This document shows, piece after piece, positions 55,967 to 62,269 of a stretch of DNA of 64,000 bases. Made by a program: the position numbers and the translations under genes. The notes under the pieces were generated by a model that had not been told where the DNA came from, made no database searches, and saw only the letters and a list, made by a program, of their open reading frames with translations. Numbering within the stretch: the first letter of the stretch is position 1; each line of letters opens with the position of its first letter. The DNA is from Balneolaceae bacterium (GTDB lineage: Bacteria > Bacteroidota > Rhodothermia > Balneolales > Balneolaceae): positions 1-64,000 of the forward strand of contig VEMX01000041.1 in assembly GCA_009711805.1 (NCBI GenBank), in the 5' to 3' direction.

Positions 55967-56275
55967 CTAAGCTTCTGCTTTAGCAGACTCAATAGCATGT
56001 AACAGTTCTTCAGCTTCCGAAATGAGTCCTTCAGCTTTTTCCTTGGCATCAAGTACTACCTGATCGCCTTTTTCTTTGGCTTCAGAAACAAGAAACTCTT
56101 TTTCCTTTTTGAGTTGTTCGATCAGTTCATTGAGATCTTCAAGGTAATTGCTGAGCTGATAAGACAGTCGGTCTCTGGTGTTTTTCCCTGTATCGGGAGC
56201 ATAAAGTAAAGCTACAACGGCTCCGGCTAATGCTCCGGTTACAATTCCTGCTAAAAAATTTGATGATTTATTCAT
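55967..56275 (-). CDS. YtxH-domain protein
   Basis: The 102 residues start with the Gly/Ala-rich membrane segment typical of YtxH (FLAGIVTGALAGAVVALLYAP, then DTGKNTRDRL) and continue as a long amphipathic, Lys/Glu-rich helix (KKEKEFLVSEAKEKGDQVVL). Such proteins are stress-induced, membrane-bound and poorly understood. It has a good ribosome site AAAGGAGAT about nine bases before the ATG and its own terminator. Confidence 0.9.
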   Translation of the reverse strand: MNKSSNFLAGIVTGALAGAVVALLYAPDTGKNTRDRLSYQLSNYLEDLNELIEQLKKEKEFLVSEAKEKGDQVVLDAKEKAEGLISEAEELLHAIESAKAEA

Positions 56276-56736: not shown

Positions 56737-57020
56737 ATGAATAAATTAAATAATATAGTAACAGTAAAGATTATAACAGGGCCGTATTTTTAGTACTGTT
56801 GATGATCATAAATCTGCAAGTAGGAATGGATGAGGAAAGTACCGATTTGTTTGGCTTAGAAGTTTCGATGGTCGTCCCCACTGCTCAAGCATCTATGAAA
56901 GCTCATACGTGTTATGATTTTTATAACTCATGTAGCTGGAACTGTGATCGGCCAATTGATTGTATTACCTGTTCAAGGGTAGATGGGGATGATCCATCTG
57001 ATGTATCAGAATGCGAGTAG
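56737..57020 (+). pseudogene. Cys-rich secreted peptide (NVEALA-like precursor), with an apparent single-base frameshift
   Basis: From ATG 56737 the frame reads MNKLNNIVTVKIITGPYF and stops at 56791. The next frame, starting about 56778, continues the same type of protein as the peptide at 57105: AVFLVLLMIINLQVG, then DLFGLEVSMVVPTAQA and a tail with six Cys (HTCYDFYNSCSWNC, DCITCSR, SECE). A one-base indel in the GGG at 56779-56781 restores a 94-residue peptide with a signal-like helix, LLMIxNLQVG and WNCDR, all shared with the second peptide. It may be a sequence error, decay or slippage. The NVEALA likeness is by layout, not a search. Confidence 0.6.
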
Positions 57021-57060
57021 CGATGAAGTAAATAGTCGATCAAGTAAAACCTTGTACAGA

Positions 57061-57090
57061 TTGGTATGCTTAAGGCCTTAAGCATACCAA
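57061..57090. promoter_or_regulatory. perfect 30-bp palindrome between the two peptide genes
   Basis: TTGGTATGCTTAAGG is followed immediately by its exact reverse complement CCTTAAGCATACCAA. It lies 41 bases after the stop of the first peptide and 15 before the second start. It can form a long hairpin as RNA or bind a dimeric regulator. Only three T follow, so it is a weak terminator at best. Confidence 0.75.
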
Positions 57091-57104
57091 TTTAAAAAAT
57101 TCAA

Positions 57105-57365
57105 GTGTACGAATTGTTCGAAACAAAATTCGGGAATAAAATAGGGTTAATAGTTGGTTCTGTATTTTTAATACTGTTGATGATCGCAAATTTACAAGTA
57201 GGAAAGCATCGATTTTTTCGGTTTAGAGCTTTGGCATCCACTCCTATCAGTTGCAGCCTCTTGGGGGTGAATATATGTTTATGGAATTGCGACCGAGTTA
57301 TAGAATATGGTTCCTATGAGTGGGTAGAGTTTAATGATTTAATGGATTTCGAAAAGTGTATATAA
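57105..57365 (+). CDS. Cys-containing secreted peptide (NVEALA-like precursor)
   Basis: The 86 residues start at GTG 57105 (no ATG is near). A hydrophobic leader (IGLIVGSVFLILLMIANLQV) is followed by FRFRALASTPISC, where ALAS-P-C recalls the processing region of NVEALA peptides, and then four Cys (ISC, NIC, WNC, EKC). The layout of signal, ALA-type site and Cys tail is shared with the broken peptide just upstream, which has WNCDR at the same place. It precedes a propeller lipoprotein and a thioredoxin-like gene. The role of such peptides is not established. Confidence 0.65.
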   Translation: MYELFETKFGNKIGLIVGSVFLILLMIANLQVGKHRFFRFRALASTPISCSLLGVNICLWNCDRVIEYGSYEWVEFNDLMDFEKCI

Positions 57366-57429
57366 AACTAAAAAAAAAGACTTAATGCGCTTAGATAGTT
57401 TAAGCATCTGCAAATTTTAACAAAAAAAA

Positions 57430-58494
57430 ATGACGCTAAGAATGACACTAAGTAAACAAATTATTTTTGTGATATTATTCTTTATTTGCATAATAGCTGG
57501 TTGTGAAAAAGAAAACAAACCAGTAAAAAAAATATCCAAGATGAATATAAGTGACACGCTTATAGCCAATGTCGTAAAAAATGATATGCCTTTATTTGCT
57601 CCTGCTAAAATTGGCATCTTAGATGAAAAACATTTGATTATTTATGACAAACAAGGTGATAAGCTATTCAAGTTGTATAATTTGCCCGATATAGAATATG
57701 AATTTGAGTGGGGTGTTATTGGCCGGGGACCAGGTGAATTGAGAAATGGTGAAGTAGGTTCGAATAGTATAATTATAGATTCATCAAGAGTAGAGTTTTA
57801 TAATCTTGATACAGGAGAATTAAAGTATTTTGAAATTACAGACAAAGGATTTTCATACACAAGTACAAGAAGATTGGAATATGACTATCAGTTACGTCCA
57901 TTATATAGATTAATAAAGTTCACTGATAACTTATATATAGGGGATGTTGGGTGGGTAAATGTCGGTGAAGAGTTAGAACCAAAACATAAATACATTGCAT
58001 TAGAGCCTGATAATTCAAATGATCTATTTCGTTTTGGAAAATATCCTGATACTGAATTGAAAAATTATGATCGATATAATAGATATAAGACCGTTTTGGC
58101 TAAAAAACCCTCCGGGGAAAAATTTGTGGCATTTAATGAGCATATAGATGAAGGTAAAATCTATGATCTTAACGGAAATCTACTCATAAATATGCAAATG
58201 ACAAAAAACATTGATGATGAAAATAAATTTCGCATAGACATCCAAAGCACTAATAAAAATATTTATGCACATTATTTAAATGCGGCTGAGAGTACAATAT
58301 TTGATGAGGGATTAGACTATAACCCAACCATAGAAGTATGGAATTGGGAAGGAGATTTAGTGGATAAGGTTGTGTTGGATAAGCCAATTCATTATTTCAC
58401 GGTATCAGAAAAATATAACAAACTATATGGCATTAGTCTGTTAGTATCAGATCAGATTTATGAATACGACCTATCTTCAATAAAACAAAATTGA
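57430..58494 (+). CDS. 6-bladed beta-propeller lipoprotein of the peptide cassette
   Basis: The 354-residue protein starts with a lipoprotein signal (IIFVILFFICIIAGC, Cys25), so it sits on a membrane facing the periplasm or outside. Blade repeats follow; GRGPGELRNGEVGSN matches the family motif seen also in the propeller at 33371-34471, and FDEGLDYNPTIEVWNWEGDL is a late blade. The start could be ATG 57430 or 57442. The stop is three bases before the next gene, so the two are one operon with the peptide genes upstream. The DNA is A+T-rich compared with the flanking RND and YtxH genes, a hint of transfer. Confidence 0.83.
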   Translation: MTLRMTLSKQIIFVILFFICIIAGCEKENKPVKKISKMNISDTLIANVVKNDMPLFAPAKIGILDEKHLIIYDKQGDKLFKLYNLPDIEYEFEWGVIGRGPGELRNGEVGSNSIIIDSSRVEFYNLDTGELKYFEITDKGFSYTSTRRLEYDYQLRPLYRLIKFTDNLYIGDVGWVNVGEELEPKHKYIALEPDNSNDLFRFGKYPDTELKNYDRYNRYKTVLAKKPSGEKFVAFNEHIDEGKIYDLNGNLLINMQMTKNIDDENKFRIDIQSTNKNIYAHYLNAAESTIFDEGLDYNPTIEVWNWEGDLVDKVVLDKPIHYFTVSEKYNKLYGISLLVSDQIYEYDLSSIKQN

Positions 58495-58497
58495 TTT

Positions 58498-59058
58498 ATG
58501 AAACTTAAACAAAGCTCAAACGGCAAGATTTTAGTATACATTTTTATGTGTAGCTTAGTTTTTGCTAATTTTTTTCTTTTATACTCCAATGTGAAAATAA
58601 AAAAGAATCTTAGCATTCTAAAAGAAGATCAAGTTAAAAACTATCCTTTTTTGAATTACGATTTATCTTCTACTGTATCTATAATCCATCCTGATGTAAT
58701 ATTAAAAGAAGAAGGTGTCTCTCTATCAATTTTTATTCCAGAGAATAGTTGTGCTAGTTGTTTAGAGTTTGAAATTCCTAACATCAATGAATTTTATATA
58801 AAGAACTCAGAGAGAACGGAAATTTATATAATAGGAAAAAATAATGTTATAGATGATTTTAATACAGATTTCCAATATAACATCATTAGTAATGATCAAG
58901 CAATTTTTGATAAAAAGATCTCATTTTCCAATCCATTGGCAGTACTTTTAGATTCTAAAGGTAAAGTTTATGACTTCTATATAGCTGAAACTAATAAGTC
59001 AGGGAAAAGCTATAATTTCTACCAGAGAATGGACTCTTTCTTTAAAGAGGTTAACTAA
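58498..59058 (+). CDS. membrane-anchored thioredoxin-like protein of the peptide cassette
   Basis: The 186 residues have one N-terminal membrane helix (ILVYIFMCSLVFANFFLLY) and a thioredoxin-like domain with the redox motif NSCASCLE (Cys85, Cys88) preceded by the strand VSLSIFIP, and a later strand LAVLLDSKGKVYDFY, as in AhpC/TSA-like periplasmic thiol proteins. It starts three bases after the propeller stop. Because the peptides encoded upstream carry four and six Cys, disulfide formation or reduction of those peptides is a natural but unproven role. Confidence 0.78.
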   Translation: MKLKQSSNGKILVYIFMCSLVFANFFLLYSNVKIKKNLSILKEDQVKNYPFLNYDLSSTVSIIHPDVILKEEGVSLSIFIPENSCASCLEFEIPNINEFYIKNSERTEIYIIGKNNVIDDFNTDFQYNIISNDQAIFDKKISFSNPLAVLLDSKGKVYDFYIAETNKSGKSYNFYQRMDSFFKEVN

Positions 59059-59143: not shown

Positions 59144-62100
59144 CTAAACTTTTGCAGCCTCCACTTTATTATTGCGTTTAAACAAACCTTTAACCCATTG
59201 TATGATCTGGTTAAAACCAACCGACAGGGCAGGGGTGATAAACAGGGTTAAGACAGATCCGAAAATGAGCCCGCCTATGACGGCTTTTGCCAGGGGAGAC
59301 CAAATTTCTGCGCCGGCACCTAACTCCAGGGATAGTGGAATCATAGAGCAGATGGTTGTGATAGCGGTGAGCAGTATTGGACGCATCCTTCTCCGGCAGG
59401 CTTCCAATACGTGTTGCATATAGGGTGATTTGGGATCGGTATTAAAGGTGTTCCCTTTGGAATACAAGTGAATATAATCCACCAGTACAATGCCATTGTT
59501 TACAATAATCCCCACCAGCATAAACATCCCGATTTGGGCGGTTGTGCTCAGTGGGGTATCGATCAAATACATAAAAGCCAGTGCTCCAAACATCGCCAGT
59601 GGAATGCACAGCCATATCACAAAAGGATCTCTGAAGTTTTCAAAGAGAGATGCCATAATCATATACATAAGCAGCAGCGCTCCAATCAGGGCGAACCCAA
59701 ACTCGGCCTGTCCCCGCTGTGTTTCCCGGGTACTTCCGGTAAACTCGAACCTATATCCTTCCGGAAGGATAATCTCGTTCTTCAGAAAGCTGGTAATGGT
59801 TTCCCGGTATTGATTGGCATCGCCATTCACCTGTATGTTTACATCGAGGACGGTTTGGCGGTCTCTTCGGGAAAAAGAATCTACTCCTTCCATAGGAACG
59901 AATTCCCCAACAGCCGCAACGGGTACCCGCTGGTTATTGACTTGCAGCACTTCAATATCAAAGAGATCTTCACGGCTTTTAATAGCATTTTTCCGGGTGC
60001 GAACTTCAATGGGGATTTCACGCCCTTCCGATATATAATATCCGGCTTGATTACCCAGTGTTTGTGTTCTGAGGTTACCGGCAATGGTATTCAGATTTGT
60101 GCCAAGTAAGCCGAGGCGTTCACGGTCGGCATAAAAATGAAGCTCCGGAGTGGGATCTGTTCTGCCGTTATCCACGGATATTATGGTGGAATCTTGCAGC
60201 AATTTAGCTTCAATTCGGTCTGATATGGCAATAAGCTCATCTATCTGCGGCCCAATAAGACTGAGCCGGATGGAACCTCCTCCCGAGTTCCAGCCTCTTC
60301 CAAAACGCAAACCGCCCCCTTCAACCGATACCCGTACATCTACGCCGGGAGAGGTTAGTATTTGCCTTAACTCTACAGCGTATTGGTTCGTTGTTTTTTC
60401 ACGCTCTGTTTCAGCTACAAGTGTTAAGCTGATTTCCCCCCGGTTGCTTTGCTCAGTCCAGCGACTGCGGCCAAAAGAGGTGATCATGGTTTCCACATCA
60501 GGGTGGTTGGCAAGTGTATCGCTGAACTGTTCCATCACCTCTACGGTTTTAACCAGCTTACTACCCTGGGGAAGAGTAATGTCCACATCAATTTGTCCGG
60601 AGTCGGATTCCGGGAATCCTTCTTTGTCAATAGCAGAATACAGGAAGCCTGTGCTTCCAATAATGACAATTATCAGAAGGGCGGGAATCCATTTGTGGTG
60701 AAGCAGCCAGTTTAGCACTTTGGTATATCCACGTTCTAATTTTGAGATACCCCGAAAAGCCAGGTTACGATTGTTGAACTGAGATTTATCGAGGGTGAGC
60801 AGGGATATAACCGGTACCAGGATGATAGATGATAAAAATGAAAAACCAATAGCAAAGCAAATGGTATAGGCGAATTCCCTGAAAAAAGAACCGGCTGTAC
60901 CGGAGATAAGGATGATAGGGACAAATACGCCAAGAGTTGTTAGCGTTGAACCCAGCAAAGCCCCTATTACTTCATTTGTACCTGTAAGAGCAGCCTCGAA
61001 ACGGGGCAGGCCTTCTTCGAGCTTTCGTGCTATACTTTCGGTAACCACAATAGAGTTATCTACCAGCAGGCCAATGGCAAGAGCCAACGCCGAGATGGTG
61101 AGGATATTCAGTGTGAGATCTGCCGCATACATGGCAGCAAAACTGGCGGCAATGGAAACGGGAATAGAACAAGCCACCACCAATGATATACGCCATCCAC
61201 CCATAAAAATCAGGATGACGACAATAACGACAATCAAAGCTGCCAGTGCAGATTGCGAAAGGTTATTGGTGGAATTTTCGATGGTGCGTCCTTCGTCAGA
61301 GAGGACCTGAACCTGTACACCGGGCGGCATTATTTCGTTGATTTCGGGCAGGGCGGCTTTTACGGCATTTACAACATCCAGGGTATTGGCATCCGAGTTT
61401 TTTTGAACGTCTACCGAAACACTATTGCGTTGGTTTACTTTTACCAGGTTGGTAATTTCGGTAAAGCCGTCAGATACCTCAGCTACATTTTTAAGACGGA
61501 TGGGGATCCCATTTTCTGAAATCTTGATAATAGTATTGGCAATTTCGTCTACATCCTGATAGGTTGATTGCGCCCGAATACTATAACTGGTTTTATCAGC
61601 AACGATATTACCGATGGGAACCTGTGCATTATTATTTCGCAGAGCACGTTCAATATCAGCCGGCACAAGATTATGTTGAGCCAGCGACATGGGAGATACA
61701 TCCACATAAATTCGCCGCTCCAATCCTCCCTGGGTATCGGCCGAAGCAAGTCCATTTATACGTTCCAGCCGGGTTTCCACCATTTCCAAGCCAATGGTTC
61801 GCAACTCATCCAGTCCACGGTTTTCTGCATCAATACTCAGTTTCATGATGGGACGGCTTTCCGGGTCAAATTGAAAAATCACAGGCTCCTGAGCCTGAGT
61901 GGGTAACTCATTGCGTATCTGGTCAATGGCCTCTCTTACCTTTAGTTCTGTTTTGCGGATGTCGGTTCCTTCCTGCAACCGGAGAATGATAAAAGCACTG
62001 CCTTTACTTACACGGGCTTCCATCGTTTCTATGCCTTCAATAGCTGATACAGCGCCTTCAATCGGGTTCACCAAAATCCGGTTAATATCTTCCGGGGCTA

Positions 62101-62269
62101 CATTTTGATAACTGGTTGATACCGCCAGCACCGGAATATTGAGAGAGGGATAGAGGGTGACGCGGAGGTTGGTAAGCGAAAACACCCCAAAGCCGATTAC
62201 AATAAGGGTCATCATAATGACGGTAATAGGTCGTCGTAGTATGCCATCTGCTACACTAAATTGTTTCAT
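59144..62269 (-). CDS. RND efflux permease, HAE1/AcrB-like
   Basis: The 1041-residue protein has the full RND layout: an N-terminal helix (VADGILRRPITVIMMTLIVI), a first periplasmic domain (about 35-320), a membrane block with the proton-relay TM4 LALAIGLLVDNSIVVTESIA (Asp-Asn near residue 405), a second periplasmic domain, and a final membrane block with GIIVNNGIVLVDYI. It exports hydrophobic or amphiphilic compounds. It stands 79 bases downstream of a second RND permease read the same way, so a two-permease pump is likely; adaptor and outer-membrane genes are not in the window. Confidence 0.93.
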   Translation of the reverse strand: MKQFSVADGILRRPITVIMMTLIVIGFGVFSLTNLRVTLYPSLNIPVLAVSTSYQNVAPEDINRILVNPIEGAVSAIEGIETMEARVSKGSAFIILRLQEGTDIRKTELKVREAIDQIRNELPTQAQEPVIFQFDPESRPIMKLSIDAENRGLDELRTIGLEMVETRLERINGLASADTQGGLERRIYVDVSPMSLAQHNLVPADIERALRNNNAQVPIGNIVADKTSYSIRAQSTYQDVDEIANTIIKISENGIPIRLKNVAEVSDGFTEITNLVKVNQRNSVSVDVQKNSDANTLDVVNAVKAALPEINEIMPPGVQVQVLSDEGRTIENSTNNLSQSALAALIVVIVVILIFMGGWRISLVVACSIPVSIAASFAAMYAADLTLNILTISALALAIGLLVDNSIVVTESIARKLEEGLPRFEAALTGTNEVIGALLGSTLTTLGVFVPIILISGTAGSFFREFAYTICFAIGFSFLSSIILVPVISLLTLDKSQFNNRNLAFRGISKLERGYTKVLNWLLHHKWIPALLIIVIIGSTGFLYSAIDKEGFPESDSGQIDVDITLPQGSKLVKTVEVMEQFSDTLANHPDVETMITSFGRSRWTEQSNRGEISLTLVAETEREKTTNQYAVELRQILTSPGVDVRVSVEGGGLRFGRGWNSGGGSIRLSLIGPQIDELIAISDRIEAKLLQDSTIISVDNGRTDPTPELHFYADRERLGLLGTNLNTIAGNLRTQTLGNQAGYYISEGREIPIEVRTRKNAIKSREDLFDIEVLQVNNQRVPVAAVGEFVPMEGVDSFSRRDRQTVLDVNIQVNGDANQYRETITSFLKNEIILPEGYRFEFTGSTRETQRGQAEFGFALIGALLLMYMIMASLFENFRDPFVIWLCIPLAMFGALAFMYLIDTPLSTTAQIGMFMLVGIIVNNGIVLVDYIHLYSKGNTFNTDPKSPYMQHVLEACRRRMRPILLTAITTICSMIPLSLELGAGAEIWSPLAKAVIGGLIFGSVLTLFITPALSVGFNQIIQWVKGLFKRNNKVEAAKV

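Follow-up and report, generated by a model that had tools for sequence, protein, structure and literature searches.

A candidate accessory cassette for a variable Cys-rich secreted peptide in a Balneolaceae genome, and its likeness to NVEALA clusters

In the genome of a Balneolaceae bacterium, a 2.3-kb A+T-rich stretch of four genes, all on the plus strand, separates a YtxH gene from an RND efflux pump gene. This cassette is probably an accessory, horizontally circulating unit that makes one variable, disulfide-stabilised secreted peptide, and it would be this class's counterpart of the NVEALA clusters (estimated probability about 0.55). With a trio of genes that travels across several classes and combines constant leaders with changing mature parts, a group of small unknown proteins becomes a testable system, in which it can be asked which protease cuts the leader, whether the thioredoxin folds the peptide and which ligand the propeller takes.

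The window (the whole stretch of 64,000 nucleotides that was analysed) is part of contig C18 of a 4.08-Mb genome. The cassette lies between the 3' end of the RND gene (59144-62269) and the YtxH gene (55967-56275), both on the minus strand, and its GC content is 30.9%, compared with 43.4% for the whole window. The first gene is a frameshifted precursor gene (peptide 1, 56737-57020), recognised by three-frame translation and by a match to the precursor profile A6. It is followed by an intact gene for a Cys-rich secreted precursor of 86 residues with a GTG start (peptide 2, 57105-57365). After a gap of 64 bases comes a TolB-like 6-bladed beta-propeller lipoprotein of 354 residues (57430-58494; lipobox IAGC), and three bases further an N-terminally membrane-anchored thioredoxin-like protein of 186 residues (58498-59058), which has a CASC motif and a conserved NP further on. 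The preliminary description of this DNA had placed the propeller lipoprotein within 65 bases of the peptides and a CASC thioredoxin-like protein three bases past it, as is found here, and both motifs that it gave as common to the two peptides, LLMIxNLQVG and WNCDR, are seen in the translations. Its count of two small Cys-rich precursors holds for peptide 2, which is intact and has four Cys, but not for the frameshifted peptide 1. The two peptide genes are separated by a perfect 30-base palindrome (57061-57090, no strand assigned) with a hairpin energy of -19.8 kcal/mol (z -5.2). Since it occurs only once in the genome, its interpretation as a mobile-element repeat was ruled out; no clear T run follows it, and terminator prediction made no call there.

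In the three-frame translation, the ATG frame of peptide 1 from 56737 reads MNKLNNIVTVKIITGPYF; it has 18 codons, ends at a stop at 56793 and resembles the beginning of peptide 2. The hydrophobic and Cys-rich part is found in another frame (56754-57020), which contains VFLVLLMIINLQVG and has six Cys after AQA. This frame has no ATG ahead of the hydrophobic segment, only a TTG at 56799 and an ATG at 56802 inside it. Profile A6, which was built from the precursors of other loci, matches at 56784-57020 with an E-value of 9e-5. Judged by its sequence, the stretch is a true relative of the cassette precursors despite the frameshift, which may reflect either gene decay or a sequencing error. Other modules of the host genome are also decayed: in C9 the peptide has no leader and the thioredoxin gene is split, and in C24 the thioredoxin gene is shortened. 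Unlike these decayed cassette genes, the long genes flanking the modules are intact.

The window propeller matches PF15869 (TolB_like) in two stretches with 42.6 bits, above the curated cut-off of 29.2 (E 6.2e-11), and has paralogues in its own genome. An AlphaFold single-sequence model of it was of too low quality for use. A tandem array of eight propeller genes, none with a peptide gene, was observed in another genome (G019, L127:452-10554).

A+T-rich DNA often contains small open reading frames that have hydrophobic ends, and the four genes could in principle be unrelated neighbours whose pattern arose by chance. This explanation is hardly credible and is already refuted by the recurrence of the trio. 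A Cys-rich secreted open reading frame lies at most 250 bp upstream of 24 of 92 propeller genes, as against 1 of 198 other long genes at the same loci. Within the genome itself, the counts are 8 of 19 propeller genes against 0 of 49 other long genes (p 1e-5), and a thioredoxin-like gene is near 10 of the 19 propellers against 1 of the 49 (p 3e-6). For other genomes of the class, a peptide is found upstream of 16/73 propellers compared with 1/149 other long genes (p 7e-8); in this sample of 73, which was chosen by propeller score, a thioredoxin is near only three propellers, not above background. A search with the thioredoxin only gave 23 matches in 12 genomes, and for 16 of them HMM criteria showed the order peptide-propeller-thioredoxin. 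The query members account for four of the 16, and 11 come from nine other genomes of the class, so that recovery of the trio there speaks against chance, as does the leader homology to NVEALA described below. Two further matches fit the order on inspection. The thioredoxin thus almost always belongs to a trio, whereas the propeller is often alone.

Searches of the genome with propeller, thioredoxin and precursor revealed about 14 loci of cassette type, several of them decayed. These comprise peptide-propeller-thioredoxin loci (C18, C20, C10, C47, C48, C55 and C2), other gene orders (C35 and C50), peptide-propeller pairs at contig ends (C81 and C84), a propeller-thioredoxin pair (C46) and decayed loci (C9 and C24). 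Each of the four matches of a precursor-profile search of this genome is upstream of a propeller gene. According to the preliminary description, its proposal would fail if the gene order did not recur in related genomes or if relatives had lost the peptides and kept the propeller. The neighbourhood survey that it suggested found that the order recurs widely; the second situation occurs in part, as relatives often have propellers without a peptide. In the C20 module, a gene for a fasciclin-like lipoprotein (named by eye; L075:5037-5570) lies between propeller and thioredoxin.

The cassette was inserted in this lineage. The RND and YtxH genes are directly adjacent in 17 of 19 relatives, which thus have an empty site; in one of the 19 YtxH was not found, and G003 carries at the same site and in the same orientation a different, distant propeller alone (L235:2269-3315). 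The suggestion of transfer, made earlier from the A+T-rich DNA, is supported by this empty site. Modules have a lower GC content than their flanks at 25 of 26 loci, G+C-rich hosts included. Across 18 modules, the distances of peptide, propeller and thioredoxin correlate (Mantel r 0.66-0.71, p 2e-4), a correlation to which common descent of the hosts may contribute, and for several modules of this genome the nearest ones belong to other genera. The empty site, the low GC content, the correlated distances and these cross-genus neighbours point to an accessory unit that is gained and lost as a whole.

The precursors follow a common plan. A hydrophobic segment is followed by a spacer, by A-x-A at about residue 36-60 (36 of 46 precursors) and then by the Cys-rich part. 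Peptide 2 shows this anatomy with RALA|STPISC and four Cys thereafter, and the corresponding site of peptide 1 is AQA. Precursors within one genome have leaders of 77-93% identity, compared with 22-39% for the mature parts, which share little besides Cys, and even the Cys spacing is variable. In G172, three precursors have the common leader LLMFFNLQIA...DIDLFGLKIS...PSVYAT, which resembles the leader of window peptide 1 (LLMIINLQVG...STDLFGLEVS...PTAQAS). Three precursors of one genome at L192:3500-7561 combine nearly identical leaders with unrelated Cys-rich mature parts. The window peptides matched no family in Pfam or NCBIfam. Weak NCBIfam matches to models of peptide pheromones, single ones only, were set aside.

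A constant leader and a free-running mature part suggest that the leader is what the machinery reads and that the mature part is diversifying in the way of toxin-like or recognition peptides. The conotoxin-type precursors of animal venoms likewise have a constant leader and a Cys-rich mature part that changes fast. The likeness is one of pattern only, since the cassette is bacterial and has partner genes, and no homology is claimed. The same pattern would suit a secreted, toxin-like bacteriocin with the propeller lipoprotein as its cognate immunity protein, and so would the several copies decaying within one genome, the mobile, A+T-rich character of the cassette and the survival of a propeller without peptide at the same site in G003. 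Nevertheless, the propellers are much bigger than usual immunity proteins, and PADLOC and the bacteriocin models of NCBIfam gave no match; on this balance a bacteriocin-immunity pair appears quite unlikely. A reading of the cassette as a defence system was dropped for want of a PADLOC match.

Disulfide folding of the peptide, as proposed in the preliminary description, is plausible in view of the Cys numbers and of the active-site conservation in the thioredoxin family. The number of Cys in the mature part is even in 40 of 46 precursors (coin-flip p 1.6e-7, with sequences that are partly non-independent and a heuristic cut point). The family profile of the thioredoxin-like protein (A7) matches a solved thioredoxin (8t4c, 3.1e-8) and ResA (4nmu, 7.4e-6). 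Among the 24 family sequences, the first Cys (C85) is invariant and the Pro at the cis-Pro position (P146) nearly so. Against thioredoxin-type Pfam families, the A7 members gave nothing better than E 0.025 (Redoxin), and the window protein is claimed by no Pfam family; its AlphaFold single-sequence model has a pLDDT of 40. Three cassette homologues have CxxS instead of CxxC (L184:3975-4580, L187:3808-4332 and L189:3946-4461), so that the redox function may differ among members; loss of the second Cys would be compatible with an isomerase-like role.

Small Cys-rich proteins with thioredoxin neighbours can also handle metal. The Cys-rich part might accordingly bind a metal or cofactor and be kept reduced by the thioredoxin, a reading for which this general knowledge speaks. 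It is considered very improbable, as the Cys spacing is not conserved, the even Cys numbers suit disulfides and the peptide would be located outside the cytoplasm.

Methylamine dehydrogenase pairs a Cys-rich light chain with a propeller heavy chain, and the thioredoxin-like MauD is needed for the disulfides of the light chain. The cassette resembles this cluster (MauA, MauB, MauD) in its exported disulfide-rich small protein, its propeller and its membrane thioredoxin. By analogy, the peptide could stay permanently with the propeller as the small subunit of a complex, and the cassette would then encode an enzyme or binding complex and not a secreted effector. Possession of the same three types of part and the co-inheritance of the three genes agree with such a complex. 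However, nothing but Cys is conserved in the variable mature parts of the cassette peptides, unlike what is expected of an enzyme subunit, the cassette propeller family is 6-bladed according to its Pfam description, and neither the methylamine dehydrogenase chains (Pfam) nor MauD (NCBIfam) found a match in the cassette. A subunit role of this kind is therefore regarded as unlikely, and a variable secreted peptide is preferred.

The closest likeness concerns the NVEALA clusters, a link already drawn in the preliminary description. The NVEALA peptides are a named family to which, to our knowledge, no function has been assigned, and the family is otherwise known from Bacteroidales. No mention of NVEALA or DUF6520 was found in the literature covered (open-licence papers). 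The NVEALA HMM that had been proposed as a check (PF14055, cut-off 27 bits) matched neither window peptide, nor the 46 precursors (E 0.5), nor anything in the genome itself. Nonetheless, NVEALA leaders and those of related precursors can be aligned with each other: hhalign of 12 related precursors against 12 NVEALA precursors gave 94.6% (E 6.7e-8, leader columns only), and a profile comparison of all 46 precursors, with window peptide 2 first, gave 89.8%. Some cassette precursors end their leader in QEALA (L181, L182). A tblastn search with the window propeller found a single named relative, in a Bacteroidales MAG from goat rumen, and this propeller is preceded by an ANVEALTG precursor. Genuine NVEALA loci occur in two genomes of the phylum, G310 and G406; a propeller gene follows the peptide there at once, and the same profile finds these propellers with E-values of 1e-17 to 1e-57. 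In one of the NVEALA clusters (L135) the order is peptide-propeller-thioredoxin, as in the window, and the window thioredoxin family profile finds the thioredoxin of this cluster (2e-29) as well as the window protein (2e-48).

The cassette thus shares with the NVEALA/TolB_like clusters of Bacteroidales a leader that consists of a hydrophobic segment and a spacer and has AxA near residue 43, with Cys beyond it, a PF15869-family propeller directly downstream, and a thioredoxin-like protein, which in one cluster stands in the same order. In contrast, the window cassette has no signal peptidase or DUF1573 gene beside it and lacks the NVEALA word. Absence of a PF14055 match, set against the leader alignment and the QEALA ends, suggests the same kind of system with distinct peptides; the cassette is treated here as such, and the window peptides as a distinct branch. 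The earlier view that a thiol protein is an addition of this cassette is not supported: the L135 cluster has the same order and a homologous thioredoxin, so that a thiol partner is not peculiar to the window, and other clusters have a thioredoxin-DUF1573 protein. In the latter, a thioredoxin-like part (STGCTSC) is joined to DUF1573 beside NVEALA peptides and propellers (L134:6496-7365 and L135:4804-5667). Genes for S26 signal peptidase I, candidates for a leader protease, occur within NVEALA clusters at L132:13335-14225 and L135:1293-2180. The DUF6520 family (PF20130) is similar in that its small secreted precursors stand next to TolB_like propellers in the survey. Its model matched 3 of 46 precursors weakly (best 0.0017) and neither window peptide.

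On this basis, the following course can be proposed for a variable secreted peptide. The precursor would be inserted by Sec via its N-terminal hydrophobic segment and then cut behind the A-x-A near residue 40, with signal peptidase I as the probable enzyme, for which the S26 genes of the two NVEALA clusters speak. The freed Cys-rich part would form disulfides with the membrane thioredoxin as oxidase or isomerase, as the even Cys numbers and the active-site conservation suggest. The finished peptide would be bound by the propeller lipoprotein, a putative peptide-binding protein in view of gene pairing and co-inheritance, which could act as carrier, receptor or immunity partner. The peptide would then serve in contact with other cells. 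Of the uses that the preliminary description put forward, signalling, competition or adhesion, interbacterial competition may be the final one, as a first guess. More tentatively, and with rather less confidence than in the cassette itself, the Bacteroidota might possess a phylum-wide accessory class that combines constant leaders, freely changing disulfide peptides, a dedicated membrane thiol protein and a cognate propeller lipoprotein, with NVEALA as its Bacteroidales branch; its peptides would then diversify in a bacterial version of the conotoxin style. As to carriage on plasmids, one distant match lies on a Phocaeicola plasmid.
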